DNA from: Thermoplasmata archaeon M9B2D
GTDB taxonomy: Archaea > Thermoplasmatota > E2 > DHVEG-1
Assembly: GCA_002900555.1 (NCBI GenBank)
Contig: MUGD01000012.1
Location: 1 to 33,206, forward strand
Direction: 5' to 3'
DNA: 33,206 nucleotides
Position 1 is the first letter of the stretch. Each line of letters starts with the position of its first letter. Position numbers and translations under genes: made by a program. The notes beneath the pieces were generated by a model. It did no database searches. It saw only the letters and a program-made list of their open reading frames with translations, and was not told where the DNA came from. This document shows, in pieces, positions 7,338 through 28,463 of the stretch.

Positions 7338-7353
7338 AGTGTCTGGGAGGACA

Positions 7354-10299
7354 ATGCTGAAGCAAATGTCTGGGAAGACTTTCAGCAATCTTCTTGACTA
7401 CTATATCGCTTGCCTGCAGCAAGAAGATATGCTGTCCGTCACCTTCAATGTCTCCTCGGAAGGTGTCGCGTTCTTGTCCACCCTCTTCCAAACGGAAATG
7501 TTGTTCCACACAAACAACAAACAGGTGATGATCCAGAACGCAGACGAAGTACAAAAGTTTTTCCAGACCTCTTTGCTCCAGCAGAAAAACAAAACACTGT
7601 TTTACGGTTATCCGATAGTAATTGGTCCGCAAGGAACCATCAGCCCATTATTCTTCATAGAACTGCACATCAAACAGCACAATAACGCGTTTATCCTGGA
7701 AAAATCCTCTCCACACCACAAGTTAAATCACTTCATCCTCCTCCACCAGCAATTTTCTGCTGAAGAGATAAAAAAAATCCAACAAGAAATCGAAGAAGAA
7801 GAGTTTTATTCTGCTCTGACATCGATCTGTGAAATCCTGCATTTTAAAATCGAGGATTGTACACAAACCCTTGATGAAAAACCATTCAAACGAACCGTTG
7901 ACCAGAAACTCCTTAATAAAGCAATCCTCTATTTCGCAGAACGAACTGAAATAACACATAATTTAATCGTAGAACTAAATCAGCTGAAAAACAAACCAAT
8001 CGATGAGCTTGCATCCACAGCCTTGTTTCCTCTTCTCACCGGTTCTTACTCAAAAGAAAAAACAACCAAAGACAACCTTCCGCTCTTGGAAATATTTGCT
8101 TTAAACAAAGCCCAGGAAAATGCAGTGCGTCAATCCCTGCATAGTCCTCTTACCGTCATCACCGGACCACCAGGTACAGGAAAATCCCAAGTCGTCCTTA
8201 ACATTATCGCCAATGCTGTCTTTCACGACAACACCGTTCTCTTTGCAAGTAAGAACAACAAAGCAGTCGATGTTGTAATCAAAAAATTAAACGACCTTCT
8301 CCCGTATACGCTCCTTGTTAGAATGGGGCATCAAGGACATCGAAAGAACACAAAATCGCAATTCGAACACCTTATAAAACAGCCTATCGAAAGGATATCA
8401 ACAACACGATATTCCAAAGACGACATACTTATCATCGCATCTCAGATAGAACATGTTCAACATCAGATTACACGTCTTGCAACGATTAGCGAATCCATTG
8501 ATATTCTACAGAAAACCTTCGACGAGTTACAGAAACAATTACCAATCGACTCACCTATTCTCGAACAATCAGAACGTCTTGATAAAATCGACCCGGTGTC
8601 ATTACAAGAAGACCTTATAAAACTCTTTGGAAAACAAAAAATACTTGCGCATTTCTTTACACAGCGACAGCACCGCATACAAGAGCAATGCTTTCGGAAA
8701 TACTTCGAAGCTCTCTCCATACCACTCCAGACGTATCTTCAAAACAAACGAATCAACAGCAATACACCAATAAAAACAGTGTTACAATGGATTCTTGTTT
8801 GGAAAAGACAACAGCTAACCCAAGATGAACTTCAACAACTGAGAAAAACGGCGGCAGATCTCCCCTCGTATTCGGAGCTAAATCATCGCCTTGCTGCGTT
8901 TCACAAGAAATACATCGGCATCTCCCAGGCCTTACTCCAGCACCAGTGGATCAACAAATTCGCTAAAGCAAGTGACGAGGACAAACAACAGATCTCCCAG
9001 TATTTTCACGTATTAGAACAGCGAGGCTCATGTCTGGGGAATCAAAATATTTTCATGCAACTTCAAACACAGCGATTGCGGTTATTTCAGAAAATCATTC
9101 GATACCTGCCGGTATGGGTTGTTACCAATCTCTCTGCGAAACAAAGTTTCCCACTGAAAAACAATCTCTTCGATATCCTTATTATCGATGAGGCATCCCA
9201 ATGCGACATTATCTCTGCACTGCCCCTTTTTTATCGCGCACGGCACGTCGTTATCATAGGAGATCCCCATCAGCTTAAACATATTTCACTCCTGAGCGAA
9301 ATCCAAGACCGAGAACTTGCGATGACACATCGGGTCTCAGAGGAGATGTTCACTGTATTTTCCTATACAAAACATTCACTTTATGCTCTTGCGGAACGGA
9401 TTAAACACAACAACAGTGAGCATCCTGTACTCCTGAACGAACATTACCGATGTCACCCTGATATCATCTCTTTTTCAAATGAGTATTACTATGACAGAAA
9501 ACTGACGATCTCTACTGATGAAACAAGACTGCTGCACCATCCAAGTCTTCAGGGTAGAATCCTATGGCGACATGTAAAAGGGAAGACCATTCGCACTAAA
9601 AGCCCGTATAACGAGGAAGAGGCAGAAAAGGTCGCTGAAGAAACCCTTCGCATATTAAACCTGGTATCATCATCGCAAACATCGCTTGGGATTGTCACCC
9701 TCTTTCGTGCTCAAACCGAGATAATCACAGAGAAACTTAAAAAATTCCATGATCTCTTCGAAAATGAAATAACGATAGGAACTGCACATCGATTTCAAGG
9801 AGATGAAAAGGACATTATCCTGTTTTCACCAGCGGTTTCCGAAGGCGCAAAATCAGGGACTCTCCACTGGATACAGACCACAAACCAGCTGTTAAATGTC
9901 GCGGTCACCAGGGCACGAAGTCTCTTTGTTATTGTCGGCGACCAAGATGTCTGTCGACAAACCACAGGACCTCTCAAAAACTTATCAGACCATGTTGAAA
10001 TGATAAACACCAACCTTACTAGTGTCACCTCCCCAACAAAACAAATTCTTTATCAAGAGCTCAAAAAACATAACATCCCTATCCATCTCAACTATGTAAT
10101 CCGTGGTCCCACCCCCGTTCTTGTTGACTTCGCTTTATTCGTCAACGGAAAACGATATGCAATCGAAATAAGAGAAAATCATCTGAAACCAAAACAGAAA
10201 AAAATACCACAGACCACATGGAAAACTCGCTGGTTCACTGAACAAGAAATCCTAGTTTCCCTCTCCGATGTGGTTGAAGAAATTGCTCGATTGTGTTAA
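7354..10299 (+). CDS. SF1 (Upf1/Dna2-like) helicase fused to a C-terminal Vsr/DUF559-like nuclease domain
   Basis: A 981-residue protein. Residues 1-230 are not recognised. The helicase core has Walker A GPPGTGKS (K277), motif II DEASQ (D612-E613), motif III GDPHQL (636-641), NEHYRCHPDI, AHRFQGDEKD (811-820) and VAVTRAR (849-855), all features of AAA_11/AAA_12 superfamily 1 helicases. About 330 residues between motifs I and II are charged and probably helical. The last 100 residues contain VDFALF (D925) and YAIEIRENH (E938), the arrangement of the Vsr/DUF559 endonuclease fold, with Arg where a catalytic Lys might be expected. Helicase-Vsr fusions are known in single-gene antiphage defence, but a repair role is possible. 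Start is uncertain: GTG at 7339 or ATG at 7354; the latter has GGGAGG only 3 bases before it. Confidence 0.85.
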   Translation: MLKQMSGKTFSNLLDYYIACLQQEDMLSVTFNVSSEGVAFLSTLFQTEMLFHTNNKQVMIQNADEVQKFFQTSLLQQKNKTLFYGYPIVIGPQGTISPLFFIELHIKQHNNAFILEKSSPHHKLNHFILLHQQFSAEEIKKIQQEIEEEEFYSALTSICEILHFKIEDCTQTLDEKPFKRTVDQKLLNKAILYFAERTEITHNLIVELNQLKNKPIDELASTALFPLLTGSYSKEKTTKDNLPLLEIFALNKAQENAVRQSLHSPLTVITGPPGTGKSQVVLNIIANAVFHDNTVLFASKNNKAVDVVIKKLNDLLPYTLLVRMGHQGHRKNTKSQFEHLIKQPIERISTTRYSKDDILIIASQIEHVQHQITRLATISESIDILQKTFDELQKQLPIDSPILEQSERLDKIDPVSLQEDLIKLFGKQKILAHFFTQRQHRIQEQCFRKYFEALSIPLQTYLQNKRINSNTPIKTVLQWILVWKRQQLTQDELQQLRKTAADLPSYSELNHRLAAFHKKYIGISQALLQHQWINKFAKASDEDKQQISQYFHVLEQRGSCLGNQNIFMQLQTQRLRLFQKIIRYLPVWVVTNLSAKQSFPLKNNLFDILIIDEASQCDIISALPLFYRARHVVIIGDPHQLKHISLLSEIQDRELAMTHRVSEEMFTVFSYTKHSLYALAERIKHNNSEHPVLLNEHYRCHPDIISFSNEYYYDRKLTISTDETRLLHHPSLQGRILWRHVKGKTIRTKSPYNEEEAEKVAEETLRILNLVSSSQTSLGIVTLFRAQTEIITEKLKKFHDLFENEITIGTAHRFQGDEKDIILFSPAVSEGAKSGTLHWIQTTNQLLNVAVTRARSLFVIVGDQDVCRQTTGPLKNLSDHVEMINTNLTSVTSPTKQILYQELKKHNIPIHLNYVIRGPTPVLVDFALFVNGKRYAIEIRENHLKPKQKKIPQTTWKTRWFTEQEILVSLSDVVEEIARLC

Positions 10300-10340
10300 A
10301 GAATTTGTAAATGATTATCGCCCCTTACTTTTTTGTCAAT

Positions 10341-10350
10341 ATTTAAATAC
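10341..10350 (+). promoter_or_regulatory. TATA box of the C10 peptidase
   Basis: ATTTAAATAC, about 27 bases before a likely transcript start near 10370. An AAGGGG ribosome site (10376-10381) then precedes the ATG at 10391. Confidence 0.5.
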
Positions 10351-10390
10351 TCTATCAGAAATACAATTATGTATAAAGGGGATTTCAATA

Positions 10391-12376
10391 ATGGCAAAAC
10401 TAAACAAACTCAAAACAACAACAGTATTTGTTGCAGTAGGAATATTTCTTGGAGCAAGTACACTACCAACCATGAACGGCAATAGCTTGCCAGAACCATC
10501 AGACGTTTGGTTTTATATAGAGAAAGATATCGCGATGCAAGTCGCCTTGGCAACGCTTAATGAACTTGAAAAAACCGAGTTTTCATTAACCGAACCACTG
10601 CAGATAAAAAATGAAAAACAAGAACCGTTATTCTATGTATTCAAATTACAGCCTCAAGGTTATCTAATCGTAACCGGCTGCTATGACCTCCCCCCACTCA
10701 TAGCGTACTCATTCCTCAATAATTATGAGGAGGATACGAACATCAACCCTCTTTATGACCTGATTTATGCCGATCTGACATTTCGTCTACAAACCATTCA
10801 CCTTCTTCCAGAAGACATCCTCCAACAGCGACATCTCCAATGGGATTCCTACATTAACGGAAACAATATCCCCTCTGTAAGATTTGAACAATGGCCGCCG
10901 GAAGGCACAACACCGACTGGAGGCTGGCTTCTCACCAACTGGCATCAAAACACCCCCTACAACGACTTCTGCCCTCTTGACATAGCTAATGGAGGAACAC
11001 GTAGTGTAGCTGGATGTCCAGCAGTTGCCATAGCCCAAATATTAAACTATCATAATACAACAATGCATAGTGTTTTTGATGATAGTGATGACTACTACCA
11101 TAATTATCTAGGAAACCAGTATTGGATTGATAATAACTATGAAACCTATGATTTTCCTGCGTTTCCCCAGCTTAATAGCTATCTTTCTACACTTCAGTCG
11201 CATTATGAAAACCATATTCCTCCAACCAATGATGACAAAGCAGCAATTACCTTTGCCTGTGGTGTTGCCGCAAGACAAGTCTATGGCGCATCCGGCTCAG
11301 GAACCTATAATGTAAACCAGGCATATCAAGCCTATCAGCGATTCAACTGTTCAACATCCGCATTATTATACCCAAGCAGCCCAGATCTCTATGATAGAAT
11401 GCTGAATAATATGAAGGATGCACTGCCCGCTCATCTCGCAGTGGTAAACCCACAATGGACGGCGGGACACAACGTTGTCGTCGACGGATATAATACTGAT
11501 GAATATTATCATGTGAATTTCGGATGGGGTGGCGTTTATAATGGATGGTATCTCATCCCTGATGAACTCCCCTATAGTTTGACCGTTATTGAAGGTGTCA
11601 TTGTAGATATTCTGAAAAACACGGCTGTTCCCGATTTAACTTGCGAAGGGACGCTTGAATGGGTCAATGCCACACCAAATGAGGCTATTACCGGCTATTT
11701 TTCAGTTCATAATATCGGGGAACCGGGATCATATCTCGATTGGGAGATTGCATCATTCCCAAGTTGGGGGACCTGGACGTTTACCCCATCAGATGGTAAT
11801 AATCTTAAACCAGAGGACGGACCAGCTAACATCTCTGTAGAAGTCGTCGTACCAGATGTTGAAAATTATCTCTTTACAGGAGAAATCAAAGTAATAAACA
11901 GAGAAAACAGCAATGATTTCTTCCTTGTTCCAGTCTCCCTTCATACAGGAAAGAACGACATTGGAAAAGTATCCTGTAACGGGTCGTTAACCTGGACGGA
12001 TGTCAAACCCGAGGAAACGATGACCGGCAGTTTCACCGTGGAAAATAGTGGTACGCCATTATCTAACCTAAGCTGGGAAATCGTCAACTGGCCAGATTGG
12101 GGAACCTGGACGTTTACCTCCTTAGAAGGAACTGGTCTCGCACCAGAGGACGGACCAATAACTATTAATGTCAGTGTCATTGCACCGAAAAAAAGAAACA
12201 CGCAGTTCACCGGGGAAGTCGTTATCCTTAACATCGAAAACAGCAGCGATTATGATACAATACAAGTCATGTTAGCCACACCATACAAAAGACAATCATT
12301 CATTCTGGATATCTTCTATGCTTTCATGCAGCGATTTGAAACAAGATTGTCCCTATTTCGTTTTCTTTTTACATAA
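10391..12376 (+). CDS. Secreted streptopain-type cysteine peptidase (family C10) with two C-terminal repeats
   Basis: A 661-residue preproprotein. Residues 1-27 are a signal peptide; a propeptide of the streptopain type (about 30-150) follows. The catalytic domain has the nucleophile in VAGCPAVAIAQIL (Cys209) and the catalytic His in AGHNVVVDGY (His360), followed by FGWGGVYNGWY (377-387), which is diagnostic of peptidase C10. Residues 414-519 and 527-632 are two homologous beta-sandwich repeats, each with CxG(T/S)L.W, an S/P-x-WGTWTFT core and PEDGP. The enzyme should digest proteins outside the cell, with the repeats serving attachment or substrate binding. The frame is open back to 10268, overlapping the helicase, but the ATG at 10391 has a ribosome site and starts the signal peptide. 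A second secreted peptidase of another family lies at 20269. Confidence 0.88.
   Translation: MAKLNKLKTTTVFVAVGIFLGASTLPTMNGNSLPEPSDVWFYIEKDIAMQVALATLNELEKTEFSLTEPLQIKNEKQEPLFYVFKLQPQGYLIVTGCYDLPPLIAYSFLNNYEEDTNINPLYDLIYADLTFRLQTIHLLPEDILQQRHLQWDSYINGNNIPSVRFEQWPPEGTTPTGGWLLTNWHQNTPYNDFCPLDIANGGTRSVAGCPAVAIAQILNYHNTTMHSVFDDSDDYYHNYLGNQYWIDNNYETYDFPAFPQLNSYLSTLQSHYENHIPPTNDDKAAITFACGVAARQVYGASGSGTYNVNQAYQAYQRFNCSTSALLYPSSPDLYDRMLNNMKDALPAHLAVVNPQWTAGHNVVVDGYNTDEYYHVNFGWGGVYNGWYLIPDELPYSLTVIEGVIVDILKNTAVPDLTCEGTLEWVNATPNEAITGYFSVHNIGEPGSYLDWEIASFPSWGTWTFTPSDGNNLKPEDGPANISVEVVVPDVENYLFTGEIKVINRENSNDFFLVPVSLHTGKNDIGKVSCNGSLTWTDVKPEETMTGSFTVENSGTPLSNLSWEIVNWPDWGTWTFTSLEGTGLAPEDGPITINVSVIAPKKRNTQFTGEVVILNIENSSDYDTIQVMLATPYKRQSFILDIFYAFMQRFETRLSLFRFLFT
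11630..12286 (+). repeat. Tandem protein-domain repeat within the C10 peptidase gene
   Basis: Two units of about 320 bases (11630-11947 and 11969-12286) encode aligned domains sharing TCEGTLEW/SCNGSLTW, WGTWTFT, PEDGP and FTGE(I/V). The near-identical WGTWTFT segments suggest internal duplication. Confidence 0.75.
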
Positions 12377-19796: not shown

Positions 19797-19895
19797 TCAA
19801 AATCTCCAATCATCATAGGTAGAGTTGATGATGGCAGAAATCCCTGATAGGGTGTCGGAGGTTTCCTGTGCTTCTATGTCGTCAAATCGGATCAT
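19797..19895 (-). CDS. Possible 32-residue small protein
   Basis: An ATG at 19895 preceded by GGTGA three bases upstream opens 32 codons ending in TGA at 19797. The peptide is acidic and polar, MIRFDDIEAQETSDTLSGIS at the start and YDDWRF at the end. It lies between the pilin-like operon and the candidate RNA, on the operon strand. So short a frame is not rare by chance in this AT-rich region, and I do not recognise it; a gene remnant is also possible. Confidence 0.25.
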   Translation of the reverse strand: MIRFDDIEAQETSDTLSGISAIINSTYDDWRF

Positions 19896-20024
19896 GGTTC
19901 ACCGATTTTCTTTTACTAGAAGCAATCCTCTAGCGTAATCACAACATTAAAAATTTTTTTTCCTTTTGTAAGAATCTTAATGAGTATACCAATATTTTCT
20001 CAGATTGTCGTTTTTTCACCATAT

Positions 20025-20034
20025 GTTTATATAC
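20025..20034 (+). promoter_or_regulatory. TATA box of the candidate small RNA
   Basis: GTTTATATAC, about 26 bases before the start of the GC-rich structured block near 20055. Confidence 0.55.
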
Positions 20035-20054
20035 AATTAATGACAAATGATAAC

Positions 20055-20171
20055 ATGCCTAGGGGTGGTCAGGCTGCATTTGGTGCTGACCTGGCTGTCT
20101 TTATAGGAGCCGCGTGGTATTTGGTACCCCGTCTGGCTCTCCTCTGGGTCTTTAGTACCAGCCAATTTTTT
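20055..20171 (+). ncRNA. Candidate structured small RNA, family unknown (about 115 nt)
   Basis: A GC-rich island inside very AT-rich intergenic DNA, with a correctly spaced TATA box before it and a run of ten T after it. It folds into three stem-loops. Hairpin 1 (20067-20091): GGTCA, a GGCT bulge and GCA close a TTTGG loop with TGC and TGACC. Hairpin 2 (20106-20141): GGAGCC pairs with GGCTC(T)C, and an inner CGTGGTA/TACCCCG helix with one mismatch closes an identical TTTGG loop. Hairpin 3 (20144-20161): CTGG with CCAG, next to the T-run. The repeated TTTGG pentaloop in two different stems argues for selection. I do not recognise SRP RNA, RNase P, 5S rRNA, C/D or H/ACA features. It could act alone or as a leader of the downstream peptidase gene. 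Confidence 0.55.
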
Positions 20172-20175
20172 TTTT
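20166..20175 (+). terminator. T-run terminator of the candidate small RNA
   Basis: Ten consecutive T directly after stem-loop 3 (20144-20161) and CCAA, typical of archaeal and intrinsic termination. Confidence 0.6.
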
Positions 20176-20234
20176 ATCAATTAGGTTCAGAAACATATAA
20201 AGAACCCCAAAATTCTAAATAAAAAAGAGGTTAA

Positions 20235-20253
20235 GTTTATATATTTTATAAAC
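20235..20253 (+). promoter_or_regulatory. TATA box within a 7-bp inverted repeat, promoter of the C25 peptidase
   Basis: GTTTATA (20235-20241) and TATAAAC (20247-20253) form an exact inverted repeat with a 5-base spacer. The left arm is a good TATA box and predicts a start near 20265, just before the TTG at 20269. The repeat could be a repressor site or a by-product of AT-richness. Confidence 0.45.
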
Positions 20254-20268
20254 AAACACTAATATAAT

Positions 20269-22959
20269 TTGGGGGTAAATAAAATTCAGAACAAAAAACA
20301 AATTCAAAACAGTATTTTCTCTTTAATCGTATGTAGTATAACATTCTTAATGATATCCGCTTCATCGATATCGGAACAAATACTTGCATCTGGTCCTCAA
20401 ATAACCTATCAAAAAACTATAACACTTACTTTTTCTAAAGATGATTTTTCATTTTCAATGCAAGATGGATACGACATCATCACCTTTCCCGACGGTGGAT
20501 TTCTCACTGATATAGGAAAACCAATGATTCCTGTAACACACATACGAATAGCGCTACCTGAAGACATGAACGTAATACAGATTTGCATCAACGAGATACA
20601 AGAGGAAACAATCGAAGGTTCCTACCTCTTGTATCCTGCACAACCAGCATACCAAATCAGTACAGTTGGAAGCATCAAACAATTTATTCCCCCTAATCCT
20701 CAGACGTACCAATCCAAACATCACTACCCCTCGGCATATATCGAGTTCATCGGTCAAACTGATCTAGCTGGTCAGAGTATCGCAACTCTCGTGGTCTACC
20801 CTCTTCGCTATCTACCTTCCCAAAGGAAAATAACTCTTGTTTCCTCCATAACTATCACTGTTGAAGGAACCAGTGGACATGAATGCAGTGATTATCTCCC
20901 TTATAATATCAGAGAATACGGAAGAGAGATGTACCAACAAATGGTGCAAGATATGGTCATCAACCCGCATGACGTGGTTCTACGTTCGTCTCCACCATCT
21001 CAACCCGTTGGCGTTGGCCCAGGTGAATATGACTATGTGATTATCACCCAGGAAAGCTGGGTGAGCGCGTTCCAACCTCTTGCGGAGTGGAAAACAAAAA
21101 AAGGGGTCCCTGCGACGATTGTCACAACAACATGGATCTACAATAGCGGAGGATACAGTGGATCAAACGTGGAAAGGATACAAGCATTTGTACAAGATGT
21201 GTACTCAAATTGGGGAACGATGTTTATCCTTCTCGGAGGCGACATCGATGTTATCCCCTGTCATTTTCGAACATTTCCATATGTTCATTCTGTCCCAGTC
21301 CCAAATGATACATACTACGCAGATTTTGACGATGACTGGATCTGTGAAGTACATGTGGGACGAGCATCGGTCAGCAGCACAGGAACTAGTGCAGGAGGCA
21401 TAGGCAACTTCATCAATAAGATCCTCACCTATGAAAAAAACCCGCCGTCGACCGACTATGCGACAAATGTCGGGTTTTTCGGGTTTGACCTTGATAGCAG
21501 CACCTTTGCCGAGCAATGTAAAATAACCATAAAAAACTCATATATCCCAACGAGTTGGACAATGACAACCGTCTACGATAGCCAGGGGGGGAACCATAAG
21601 ACAGATGTTATTACAGCCATCAACGCAGGGCAGAATCTCATGAACCATGCGGACCATTGCAATTACTATATCTTGGGCACTGGATACACGAACCATGGCC
21701 TTGGTTTGTTAATCTCTGATGTAGATGCGTTTACAAATGGAAACAAACAGGGAATCCTCTATTCCATGGGGTGTTTACCAGCACAGTTTAATGAAACAAA
21801 TTGTATCGCTGAGCACTTCGTACGCAACAGCAACGGTGGCGGAGTCGCATTTATCGGAAACACGCGATATGGATATTACAACCAAGGGTCATACAACACG
21901 CTTTCCATGAAATTTGACACATATTTCTTCAAATCTCTTTTCCCGGAAAATACCTATAAGCTAGGGGCATGTTTCTCTGATCACAAGAACGATGCCTATC
22001 AATATGATCTTTTTGGTTATTATAAGTATATCTTCACTGAGCTGACCTTGTTAGGCGACCCTGAACTCCCCATCTGGAAAGAAAACCCAACCCTGATGAC
22101 GGTAACCCATCCTAATCAACTGCCGCTTAATTCTTCTTCATTCACCGTCTCAGTAAGTACAGGGGGCACCCCCATCGATCAGGCATATGTATGCCTATGG
22201 AAAGGAACAGAAATCTACGAGACCAGTATGACAAACACTGCAGGACAGGTAACATTTTCCCTCTCGCCACCTACCATGGGAACGATGTCTGTCACAGTCA
22301 CAAAACAGAATCATTTTCCATACGAGGGGCAAGTACTGGTGTTAGATGGAAATAATAACCCGCCGAATACACCCGCAAAACCAGCTGGATTGGAAAATGG
22401 TGGGATCAATATTGAATATACCTACACCACCAGTACGACTGATCCTGAAAACGAACCGGTATGGTACCAATGGAATTTCGGATCGTATCTTAGCAATTGG
22501 ATCGGCCCGTATAACTCAGGTGCAACAGCACAAATGAAATACACATGGGAGACTGCAGGTACCTATGAAGTGAAGGTAAAAGCAAAAGATCAAAATGATC
22601 TTGAAAGTGACTGGTCATTTCCACTTGTTGTCACCATTGAAGACTCTGAACCGCTCCTCTCCATCGGGATGATTACTGGTGGGTTGTTCCGAGTGTCATC
22701 CAATATTGAAAATAGTGGTGGAATCTCTGTGACAAACATCCATTGGAAGATAACTGTGGATGGAATGCTCATCCTAACCGGGCGGACACTTTCAGGGGAC
22801 ATAACTTCACTTGATATCGGGAACAAAGTAAGTATTGAACTCTCTCCAATTATTGGATTTGGGAATGTAGTAATAGCCGTCACCGTGAGCGCTGATGGTG
22901 TTCCTGAAATAACGAAAAGTGTAAGTGGGTTTCTGCTGTTTATCTATCTCAATATATAA
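20269..22959 (+). CDS. Secreted gingipain-type cysteine peptidase (family C25) with PKD and C-terminal beta domains
   Basis: An 896-residue exported protease. A signal peptide (SIFSLIVCSITFLMISA) is followed by a propeptide region to about 245. The C25 catalytic domain begins YDYVIITQESW and includes LLGGDIDVIPCHFR, the catalytic-His region NHADHC (His463) and the nucleophile region YSMGCLPAQF (Cys502) followed by NCIAEHF and GNTRYGYY. After about residue 600 come an Ig-like domain, a PKD-like domain (about 695-790) and a C-terminal domain (GLFRVSSNIENSG ... IIGFGNVVIAVTV) common in archaeal surface proteins. It should cut proteins outside the cell. The start is a TTG at 20269, nearly leaderless; a GGGGGT site at 20271-20276 points instead to an ATT at 20284. 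Neither is standard. Confidence 0.88.
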   Translation: MGVNKIQNKKQIQNSIFSLIVCSITFLMISASSISEQILASGPQITYQKTITLTFSKDDFSFSMQDGYDIITFPDGGFLTDIGKPMIPVTHIRIALPEDMNVIQICINEIQEETIEGSYLLYPAQPAYQISTVGSIKQFIPPNPQTYQSKHHYPSAYIEFIGQTDLAGQSIATLVVYPLRYLPSQRKITLVSSITITVEGTSGHECSDYLPYNIREYGREMYQQMVQDMVINPHDVVLRSSPPSQPVGVGPGEYDYVIITQESWVSAFQPLAEWKTKKGVPATIVTTTWIYNSGGYSGSNVERIQAFVQDVYSNWGTMFILLGGDIDVIPCHFRTFPYVHSVPVPNDTYYADFDDDWICEVHVGRASVSSTGTSAGGIGNFINKILTYEKNPPSTDYATNVGFFGFDLDSSTFAEQCKITIKNSYIPTSWTMTTVYDSQGGNHKTDVITAINAGQNLMNHADHCNYYILGTGYTNHGLGLLISDVDAFTNGNKQGILYSMGCLPAQFNETNCIAEHFVRNSNGGGVAFIGNTRYGYYNQGSYNTLSMKFDTYFFKSLFPENTYKLGACFSDHKNDAYQYDLFGYYKYIFTELTLLGDPELPIWKENPTLMTVTHPNQLPLNSSSFTVSVSTGGTPIDQAYVCLWKGTEIYETSMTNTAGQVTFSLSPPTMGTMSVTVTKQNHFPYEGQVLVLDGNNNPPNTPAKPAGLENGGINIEYTYTTSTTDPENEPVWYQWNFGSYLSNWIGPYNSGATAQMKYTWETAGTYEVKVKAKDQNDLESDWSFPLVVTIEDSEPLLSIGMITGGLFRVSSNIENSGGISVTNIHWKITVDGMLILTGRTLSGDITSLDIGNKVSIELSPIIGFGNVVIAVTVSADGVPEITKSVSGFLLFIYLNI

Positions 22960-27305: not shown

Positions 27306-28463
27306 ATGAAAGTGCTGGTACTTGGTGCAGGAATGATGGGGCGTGCGATCGCATACGATCTGAATCGTTCTTCCTGTTTTGATGAAATACTTATTGCCGA
27401 CAATGATAGCCGAACGACTCGTTTAGTAAAGTCCTTCCTTAAGAACACTGCAGTCCAAGTGATACTATTAGACGCAAACACAACACACGACGTAAAGAAG
27501 CATCTTCGAACGGTCGATGTGGCTGTTTCAGCGCTTCCCTATGGATATAACTATGAACTTGCGAAGATAGCAATAGAGACGAACACCCACTGGGTGGACC
27601 TTGGTGGGAATACTACAATTGTCCAACGCCAACGACGGTTGTTTTCACAAGCAAAAAAGAACAATGTAACCATACTTCCTGACTGTGGATTAGCACCTGG
27701 TCTTGTCTCAATAATCACCCATGATATCGTGGATTATTTCGATACCGTTGATTATGTACACATACGGGTCGGTGGGCTCCCGTGTTATCCGCAACCACCG
27801 TTGAACTATCAAATCGTTTTTTCACCCTATGGACTCATCAACGAGTATGTTGAGGATGCCGTTGTTCTCGATCATGGGAAAATCCTTTATAAAAAATCAA
27901 TGACCGAGCTTGAAACGTTGAAATTTCCAAAACCGTTTGGAACGATGGAGGCCTTTCACACCTCAGGAGGATGTTCAACGCTCCCCATCACCTATAAGAA
28001 GAGAATACACTATCTTGATTATAAGACCATACGGTATCCTGGTCATTGTGAAAAAATGAAAGCGATCATCGACCTTGGGTTTGCTGATGAACAAAGAATT
28101 GAGTGTGCAGGTCAGATGATCATCCCAAGGGATGTTTTTGCGTTGTTGCTGGCAACCCAGGTTCCAACCAGTGGAGAGGACGTTGTACTAGTAAAGGTAC
28201 AGAGCCGAGGAATGAAAAACGGCAGAAAACGGTACCGGGAATATCAGTTAATAGATTATTATGATAAGAAAAACAGTATCACTGCAATGATGCGAACAAC
28301 AGGGTATTCTGCTTCGATTACAGCGCAAATGATTCAAAATGGTACTATTAAGGAGCATGGTGTGTTCTGTCCAGAGGAAATCATACCTCCAAGATCATTT
28401 TTTGAGCAACTCCACAAACGAGGCATCATCCTTTCCATCCGGGAGAGATGCGCTTCATCATGA
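27306..28463 (+). CDS. Saccharopine dehydrogenase-family oxidoreductase (lysine 6-dehydrogenase-like)
   Basis: A 385-residue NAD(P)-dependent enzyme. A Rossmann dinucleotide site is at the start (VLGAGMMGRAIA; G7, G9, G12), then ADNDSR after beta-2, VAVSALPYGYNYELAKIAIE and HWVDLGG, and a catalytic-domain segment LPDCGLAPGLVSIITHD that is strongly conserved in this family. The second half (RVGGLPCYPQPPLNYQIVFSP...) matches lysine 6-dehydrogenase-type proteins, and saccharopine reductase is an alternative. A role in lysine or a related amino-acid pathway is likely but not shown. The ATG at 27306 follows AGGTGG by 9 bases; the ATG at 27297 touches that site and is less likely. Its stop overlaps the Taw3 start. 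Confidence 0.85.
   Translation: MKVLVLGAGMMGRAIAYDLNRSSCFDEILIADNDSRTTRLVKSFLKNTAVQVILLDANTTHDVKKHLRTVDVAVSALPYGYNYELAKIAIETNTHWVDLGGNTTIVQRQRRLFSQAKKNNVTILPDCGLAPGLVSIITHDIVDYFDTVDYVHIRVGGLPCYPQPPLNYQIVFSPYGLINEYVEDAVVLDHGKILYKKSMTELETLKFPKPFGTMEAFHTSGGCSTLPITYKKRIHYLDYKTIRYPGHCEKMKAIIDLGFADEQRIECAGQMIIPRDVFALLLATQVPTSGEDVVLVKVQSRGMKNGRKRYREYQLIDYYDKKNSITAMMRTTGYSASITAQMIQNGTIKEHGVFCPEEIIPPRSFFEQLHKRGIILSIRERCASS

Follow-up and report, generated by a model that had tools for sequence, protein, structure and literature searches.

The window analysed here, the whole 33,206-nt stretch of contig MUGD01000012.1 of Thermoplasmata archaeon M9B2D (assembly GCA_002900555.1, forward strand), carries at 20055-20149 a block that sequence comparisons place in what appears to be a real RNA family, so far unnamed and with no Rfam match. 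The RNA is predicted to fold into a closing helix, P1, with two arms, P2 and P3, each ending in the same AUUUGGU tip (Table 1). With a probability of roughly one half, we read it as a stable RNA of about 95-120 nt in which two copies of one binding module serve as a sponge or scaffold for a small RNA-binding protein, a protein with the Hfq/Sm fold being the candidate partner. In general, a function has been assigned to few of the small RNAs from uncultured archaea; this one was found in most sampled genomes of its order, and its compact repeated module is suited to in vitro testing.

The initial annotation of this DNA, made without database searches, had described an unrecognised structured RNA with two hairpins sharing one loop, lying in a GC-rich block within AT-rich DNA, with a TATA box at the right distance and a ten-T end. 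The general claim is supported by homologues, compensatory changes in a wider family, the promoter layout and the lack of an Rfam match, but the second helix and the third stem-loop had been drawn wrongly in detail. The G+C content is 0.525 in 20040-20159, compared with 0.21-0.43 in non-overlapping neighbouring segments, and the T10 run is present. The TATA box TTTATATA begins 29 nt upstream of 20055, its centre lying about 25-26 nt from that position. An Rfam 15 scan of the whole window at the gathering score returned a tRNA-Thr only; in the region 19800-20400, with E values up to 10, nothing overlapped 20055-20165; and a scan of 18 loci of several types gave no match covering the twin-hairpin RNAs.

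Table 1. Features of the RNA locus, in window coordinates; the last row lists loci by our own labels
Feature	Position	Strand	Evidence
TATA box TTTATATA	20026..20033	+	sequence; TATA-like sequence at the equivalent place in 7/7 homologues
Element TGACAAATGATAAC, downstream of the TATA box and ahead of the putative start	20041..20054	+	similar in 7/7 homologues
Structured RNA, putative start at about 20055	20055..20149	+	R2 match 20056-20148; R1 match 20053-20155
Closing helix P1, 5' strand GCCUAGGGG	20057..20065	+	folds of all 8 window-type sequences
Arm P2 with apical GCAUUUGGUGC and one unpaired A (20089)	20067..20096	+	folds; R2 match
First UUUGG, with a UUG triloop and a U-G closing pair predicted	20079..20083	+	sequence; kept in 7/7 homologues
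Arm P3, apical GGUAUUUGGUACC	20106..20140	+	folds; R2 match
Second UUUGG, with a UUG triloop and a U-G closing pair predicted	20120..20124	+	sequence; kept in 7/7 homologues
Closing helix P1, 3' strand CCUCUGGGU	20141..20149	+	folds of all 8 window-type sequences
T10 run, where transcription probably ends	20166..20175	+	sequence; several homologues T-rich soon after P1
Secreted C25 (gingipain-like) peptidase, neighbour	20269..22959	+	Pfam PF01364, E 1.1e-53
Archaellin-fusion loci	L268, L269, L271-L275, L277, L279-L281, L284, L285, L287		

A BLASTN search with 20040-20180 against 34 genomes reached from FolE2 relatives yielded seven strong homologues, 79-87% identical (genomes G001, G002, G004, G005, G006, G008 and G013); a first scan of genome contigs, with the peptidase as query, had found nothing. 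All eight window-type sequences fold alike, with 97.4% of the consensus-structure cells paired. The same TTTGG on two stems was confirmed; of the three stem-loops originally drawn, the two UUUGG arms stand, and the third (about 20145-20162) is not kept in the homologues, since its stretch CCUCUGGGU pairs with the 5' end GCCUAGGGG as the closing helix in 8/8 sequences. A GGTCA/TGACC stem with a GGCT bulge, also proposed, is by alignment inspection kept in G001 alone (G005 has GGUUU...GUCC at that position), and the conserved second helix instead spans the whole of P2. On the plus strand the window sequence folds at -42.9 kcal/mol with a z-score of -2.14, a value equalled by 5/200 shuffles, so that this fold, taken by itself, stands only moderately above chance; the minus strand is weaker (z -1.20; 25/200 shuffles equally good). 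For the trimmed core, z was -1.50 in the window and -2.72 to -4.53 in the seven homologues.

An ATG at 20055 opens a 55-aa frame through the block, and the locus might accordingly yield a leaderless message for a hydrophobic peptide (MPRGGQAAF...), a reading that would account for an ATG at the predicted start. The spacing between this frame and the TATA box is right; two database proteins in addition to that of the window share the frame (P0003 and P0004, the latter identical in its letters to the G001 copy); and pN/pS among the four in-frame sequences is 0.27-0.44 in five of six pairs and 1.04 in the sixth. However, P0003 and P0004 match the frame as far as the T run only, and the ends differ beyond that run among the homologues. 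A conserved protein frame across the block, which the initial annotation had named as contrary evidence, was looked for, and the frame proved to be shifted in four of the seven homologues (G008, G002, G013 and G004), with the ATG lost in G008; the stems, moreover, covary in the wider family. We therefore reject a small protein gene here; a leaderless message is extremely improbable.

Evidence for selection on the stems came from more distant relatives. The pattern GRYATTTGGTRYC matched 89 places in the order's 52 genomes, whereas a reversed control matched 29, and 15 pairs of matches were spaced 34-44 nt apart; reading the matches brought out RNAs that differ in their letters but share one architecture, with two AUUUGGU hairpins and a closing helix. 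Fifteen of 24 such other-type RNAs, hand-chosen and none of the window type, were used for alignment A8 and covariance model R2; RNAs with longer inserts (G009, G010 and G026), a type with a GCAA loop, and six of type B (G004, G005, G016, G023, G044 and G052) were left out. In A8, two-sided changes occur in 20/34 pairs, and its covariation score was reached by 0/500 shuffles. Pairing is 86.3%, and falls to 32.5-51.2% when the partners are slid by 1-3 columns, a comparison in which the A8 structure is favoured because it was hand-drawn from the same sequences. Three members (C_G031, C_G014 and B_G051) are misaligned in P1, which is therefore the least supported helix in A8. Stem covariation, whose absence the initial annotation had likewise named as contrary evidence, is thus strong in the wider family, whereas among the window-type sequences alone, which are too alike for a significant signal, two-sided changes occur in 2/34 pairs and 160/500 shuffles scored as high.

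Although none of its members is of the window type, R2 matched the window at 20056-20148 with 29.8 bits (E 1.1e-7, as rough a value as all those from the short-calibrated models R1 and R2), the sole match in 33 kb with E up to 10; ten positions, or five pairs, were marked non-standard, one pair in P2 and four in P3. Across the order, R2 matched 33/52 genomes with E values no higher than 1e-3, and 18 of these had contributed nothing to the model. Model R1, built from window-type RNAs only, matched the window at 20053-20155, the window being part of the model, and 11/52 genomes at E 0.1, these being its own seven plus G047, G022, G014 and G048. Given 14 other loci directly, R1 matched seven, and the reverse test, finding other types from the window type, thus works in part. 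The copy in G022 has a G+C content of 71%, and the loop-closing A-U pair of P2 is G-C there (GCGUUUGGCGC). Overall, the covariance-model and homology searches returned homologues with compensatory changes in the wider family and with conserved loops.

When R2, R1 and BLASTN were combined, 37/52 genomes of the order, a clade we take to be MBG-D/Thermoprofundales-like, had a match, and 36/52 had an RNA match, since G018 carries a leader copy only. One genome, SM1-50, is placed in Thermoplasmatales by NCBI. Another 28 genomes from the class, each with no more than 49 scored candidates, gave no match at E 0.01. When 340 genomes were sampled across the phylum, 31 had a match, all within the order; at most 11 candidates were scored per genome there, so that absence beyond the order is weakly tested.

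What recurs is a hairpin capped by a UUG triloop, in most cases with a bulge of one base. Its common form is GGRGAUAUUUGGUAUCUACC, in which a single A is left unpaired on the 3' side or a mismatch takes its place. In a set of 47 hairpins drawn from RNA genes and leaders, pairing continues past the searched pattern by 5.66 pairs on average; the mean is 1.97 pairs for another 29 matches to that pattern, of which 26 fall in frames of at least 100 codons and three do not; this comparison covers part of the 89 places, matches without forming inner pairs and those with repeated flanks having been dropped. On the same measure, P3 of the window extends by 3 pairs. There are two hairpins in the window RNA, three in the G009 and G010 RNAs, and one in leaders; a constant module in varying number looks like a binding-site array.

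A second RNA type, which starts with GCCTAG or GCTTAG and ends with CTAGGC, was seen at seven loci (L135, L137, L140, L148, L151, L152 and L158). As G004, G005, G016 and G052 hold this type together with another twin-hairpin RNA, at least two paralogues are present there. A probable sister RNA (L115, L116, L118 and L121, in genomes G009, G010, G015 and G025) has the same 5' start and closing helix, with a GCAA tetraloop replacing UUUGG; R2 gave three of the four weak scores (E 0.0016-0.1) and missed the fourth.

Elements resembling TGACAAATGATAAC also precede related RNA genes and some protein genes, and are missing in some distant members of the RNA family. A stretch upstream of the RNA, TGACAAAnnnTAwCATGCCTAG, recurs in the same genomes before other RNAs and some protein genes. 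By eye, a promoter layout TTTTGNCA..TTTAWATA..TGACAAAnnnTAACATG could be drawn for the window (20041-20062) and for L111, L114, L120, L133 and L148-L170; it recurs before RNA genes and several protein genes of the order, as if one regulator or special initiator served these genes.

We propose that the two ends of the RNA are joined by the closing helix and that two equal sites would thereby be displayed to a small RNA-binding protein. Each site would be the module itself, a UUG triloop closed by U-G and then an A-U pair, usually with a one-base bulge or mismatch 5-6 pairs below the loop, and selection would keep this module and not the remaining sequence. The protein would be bound more than once at a time, and the RNA, acting as a sponge or scaffold in the Csr/Rsm manner, would relieve control of mRNAs bearing a single site. 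Leader copies of the hairpin suggest that the partner may be a small protein whose predicted fold, an N-terminal helix followed by a five-strand barrel, is that of Hfq/Sm proteins; a hairpin in the leaders of five of its genes would be expected if the protein, or the sponge, controls its own mRNA.

Several observations weigh against this proposal. The five leaders are among 30 read for stand-alone genes, and 25 lack the hairpin. Co-occurrence of the RNA and the stand-alone protein gene within the order was not significant, at 20/35 against 6/17 (p 0.24), as counted by hand from the protein scan, R2 and type-A hits, with G022 entered as RNA-negative and later found RNA-positive. No such domain was found in six RNA-bearing genomes (G006, G013, G022, G026, G031 and G042), which may be incomplete. 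Among the seven window-type genomes, a short copy occurs in G002 and G004 only, and the domain lies within frames of 288-312 aa only in G001, G005 and G008, with none in G006 or G013. In addition, some type-B RNAs (G016 and G052) have a second hairpin that has degenerated. Neither the RNA nor the protein was found in the other 28 genomes of the class, a joint absence that fits any order-specific trait.

The RNA could also be part of a constitutive ribonucleoprotein, in which it scaffolds a housekeeping particle with two protein copies and titrates no regulator. The presence of the RNA in most genomes of the order, each with between one and three matches at E 1e-3, the paired ends, which resemble those of other stable RNAs, and the housekeeping-like neighbours in some genomes (an Lhr-like helicase, an Alba-like protein and a glutamine synthetase-like protein, named by eye) would all suit such a particle, but hairpin modules differ in number between RNAs and little beyond the module is conserved in distant copies, so we regard it as possible though somewhat doubtful. 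Base pairing of the UUUGG loops with CCAAA sites in mRNAs would account for the two identical tips and for the conservation of the loop letters, and a slight excess was seen at gene starts for ACCAAA (6 versus 3.3) and CCAAAT (5 versus 2.8) relative to mononucleotide shuffles. However, the full anti-loop word ACCAAAT is not enriched (1 seen versus 1.2 expected at 296 starts), the shorter words are no denser at gene starts than in the sequence at large, a GCAA tetraloop replaces the loop in the probable sister type, and only the letters UUG are predicted to be unpaired, making this mode of action improbable.

The block does precede a secreted peptidase, as initially annotated, and it might be a local regulator or leader of that gene. 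An open reading frame of 875-917 aa from the BLAST cluster of the peptidase lies downstream in 7/8 window-type loci, the window included; the cluster was formed by single linkage and includes further secreted proteins, in many of which PKD-like stretches were recognised by eye, and the window copy was the one tested with Pfam. Nevertheless, G004 keeps the RNA with no peptidase downstream, the other RNA types have varied neighbours, and both the T10 run and a TATA-like stretch of the peptidase's own (20236-20243) intervene between the RNA and the gene. Since the other RNA types lie elsewhere and the gene is not downstream in all members, we rejected the RNA as a leader of the peptidase gene, and a local role is very unlikely. 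Protein binding by the repeated module, with a sponge or scaffold action, is the reading we favour.

The Hfq/Sm-fold domain was also seen at the N-terminus of a single frame with archaellin, ahead of the hydrophobic archaellin start, in 14 of 30 fetched loci (Table 1), and PF01917 was found in 11/11 of the fusion frames tested. Several fusion linkers have no internal ATG (the one start codon considered) that would give a normal short leader. A literature search at the level of titles and abstracts found no Hfq-like archaellin fusion. Given the position of the domain, processing would release it into the cytoplasm, and one might speculate, at long odds, on an archaeal counterpart of the bacterial Csr/FliW flagellin circuit, in which the domain, some stand-alone copies of which have the AUUUGGU hairpin in their leaders, would be titrated by twin-hairpin RNAs and archaellum output placed under post-transcriptional control.

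Elsewhere in the window, neighbouring frames of 448 aa and 161 aa had no Pfam family above the cut-off. A helicase-like frame (AAA_11/AAA_12) overlaps a C10 (streptopain-like) peptidase frame by 32 bases within 7339-12376, and matches of the helicase-like protein to anti-phage models were far below the cut-offs. ARAGORN called a tRNA-Arg at 27923-28001 on the minus strand, inside a saccharopine dehydrogenase frame; Rfam does not call it, so the prediction is probably false.

No report of such a twin-hairpin RNA was found at the level of titles and abstracts, and several known systems offer comparisons. Phage coat-protein operators (MS2 and PP7) are short hairpins with a conserved loop and a bulged A, as is the window module by description, but the latter has its bulge on the 3' side, a UUG triloop and a cellular archaeal gene. 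Small RNAs that bind Hfq/Sm proteins are comparable in that the candidate partner here has that fold by prediction; known Hfq sites are U-rich and A-rich and single-stranded, whereas the family described here repeats a bulged hairpin. Like the window RNA, sRNA162 of Methanosarcina is a small archaeal RNA, and it is reported to target mRNAs (PMC3510493); the window RNA differs in that gene starts show no enrichment of the complete word complementary to its loop. In plan, the window RNA resembles the Csr/Rsm sponge RNAs (CsrB and RsmZ), which carry several copies of one hairpin motif per small RNA, the motif also occurring in mRNA leaders (see PMC4894983 and PMC4005645). The tip in the window RNA is, however, AUUUGGU with a bulge and not GGA in loops, the host is archaeal, and binding is putative; if the sponge reading is true, a Csr-like logic would have been built here from unrelated parts.
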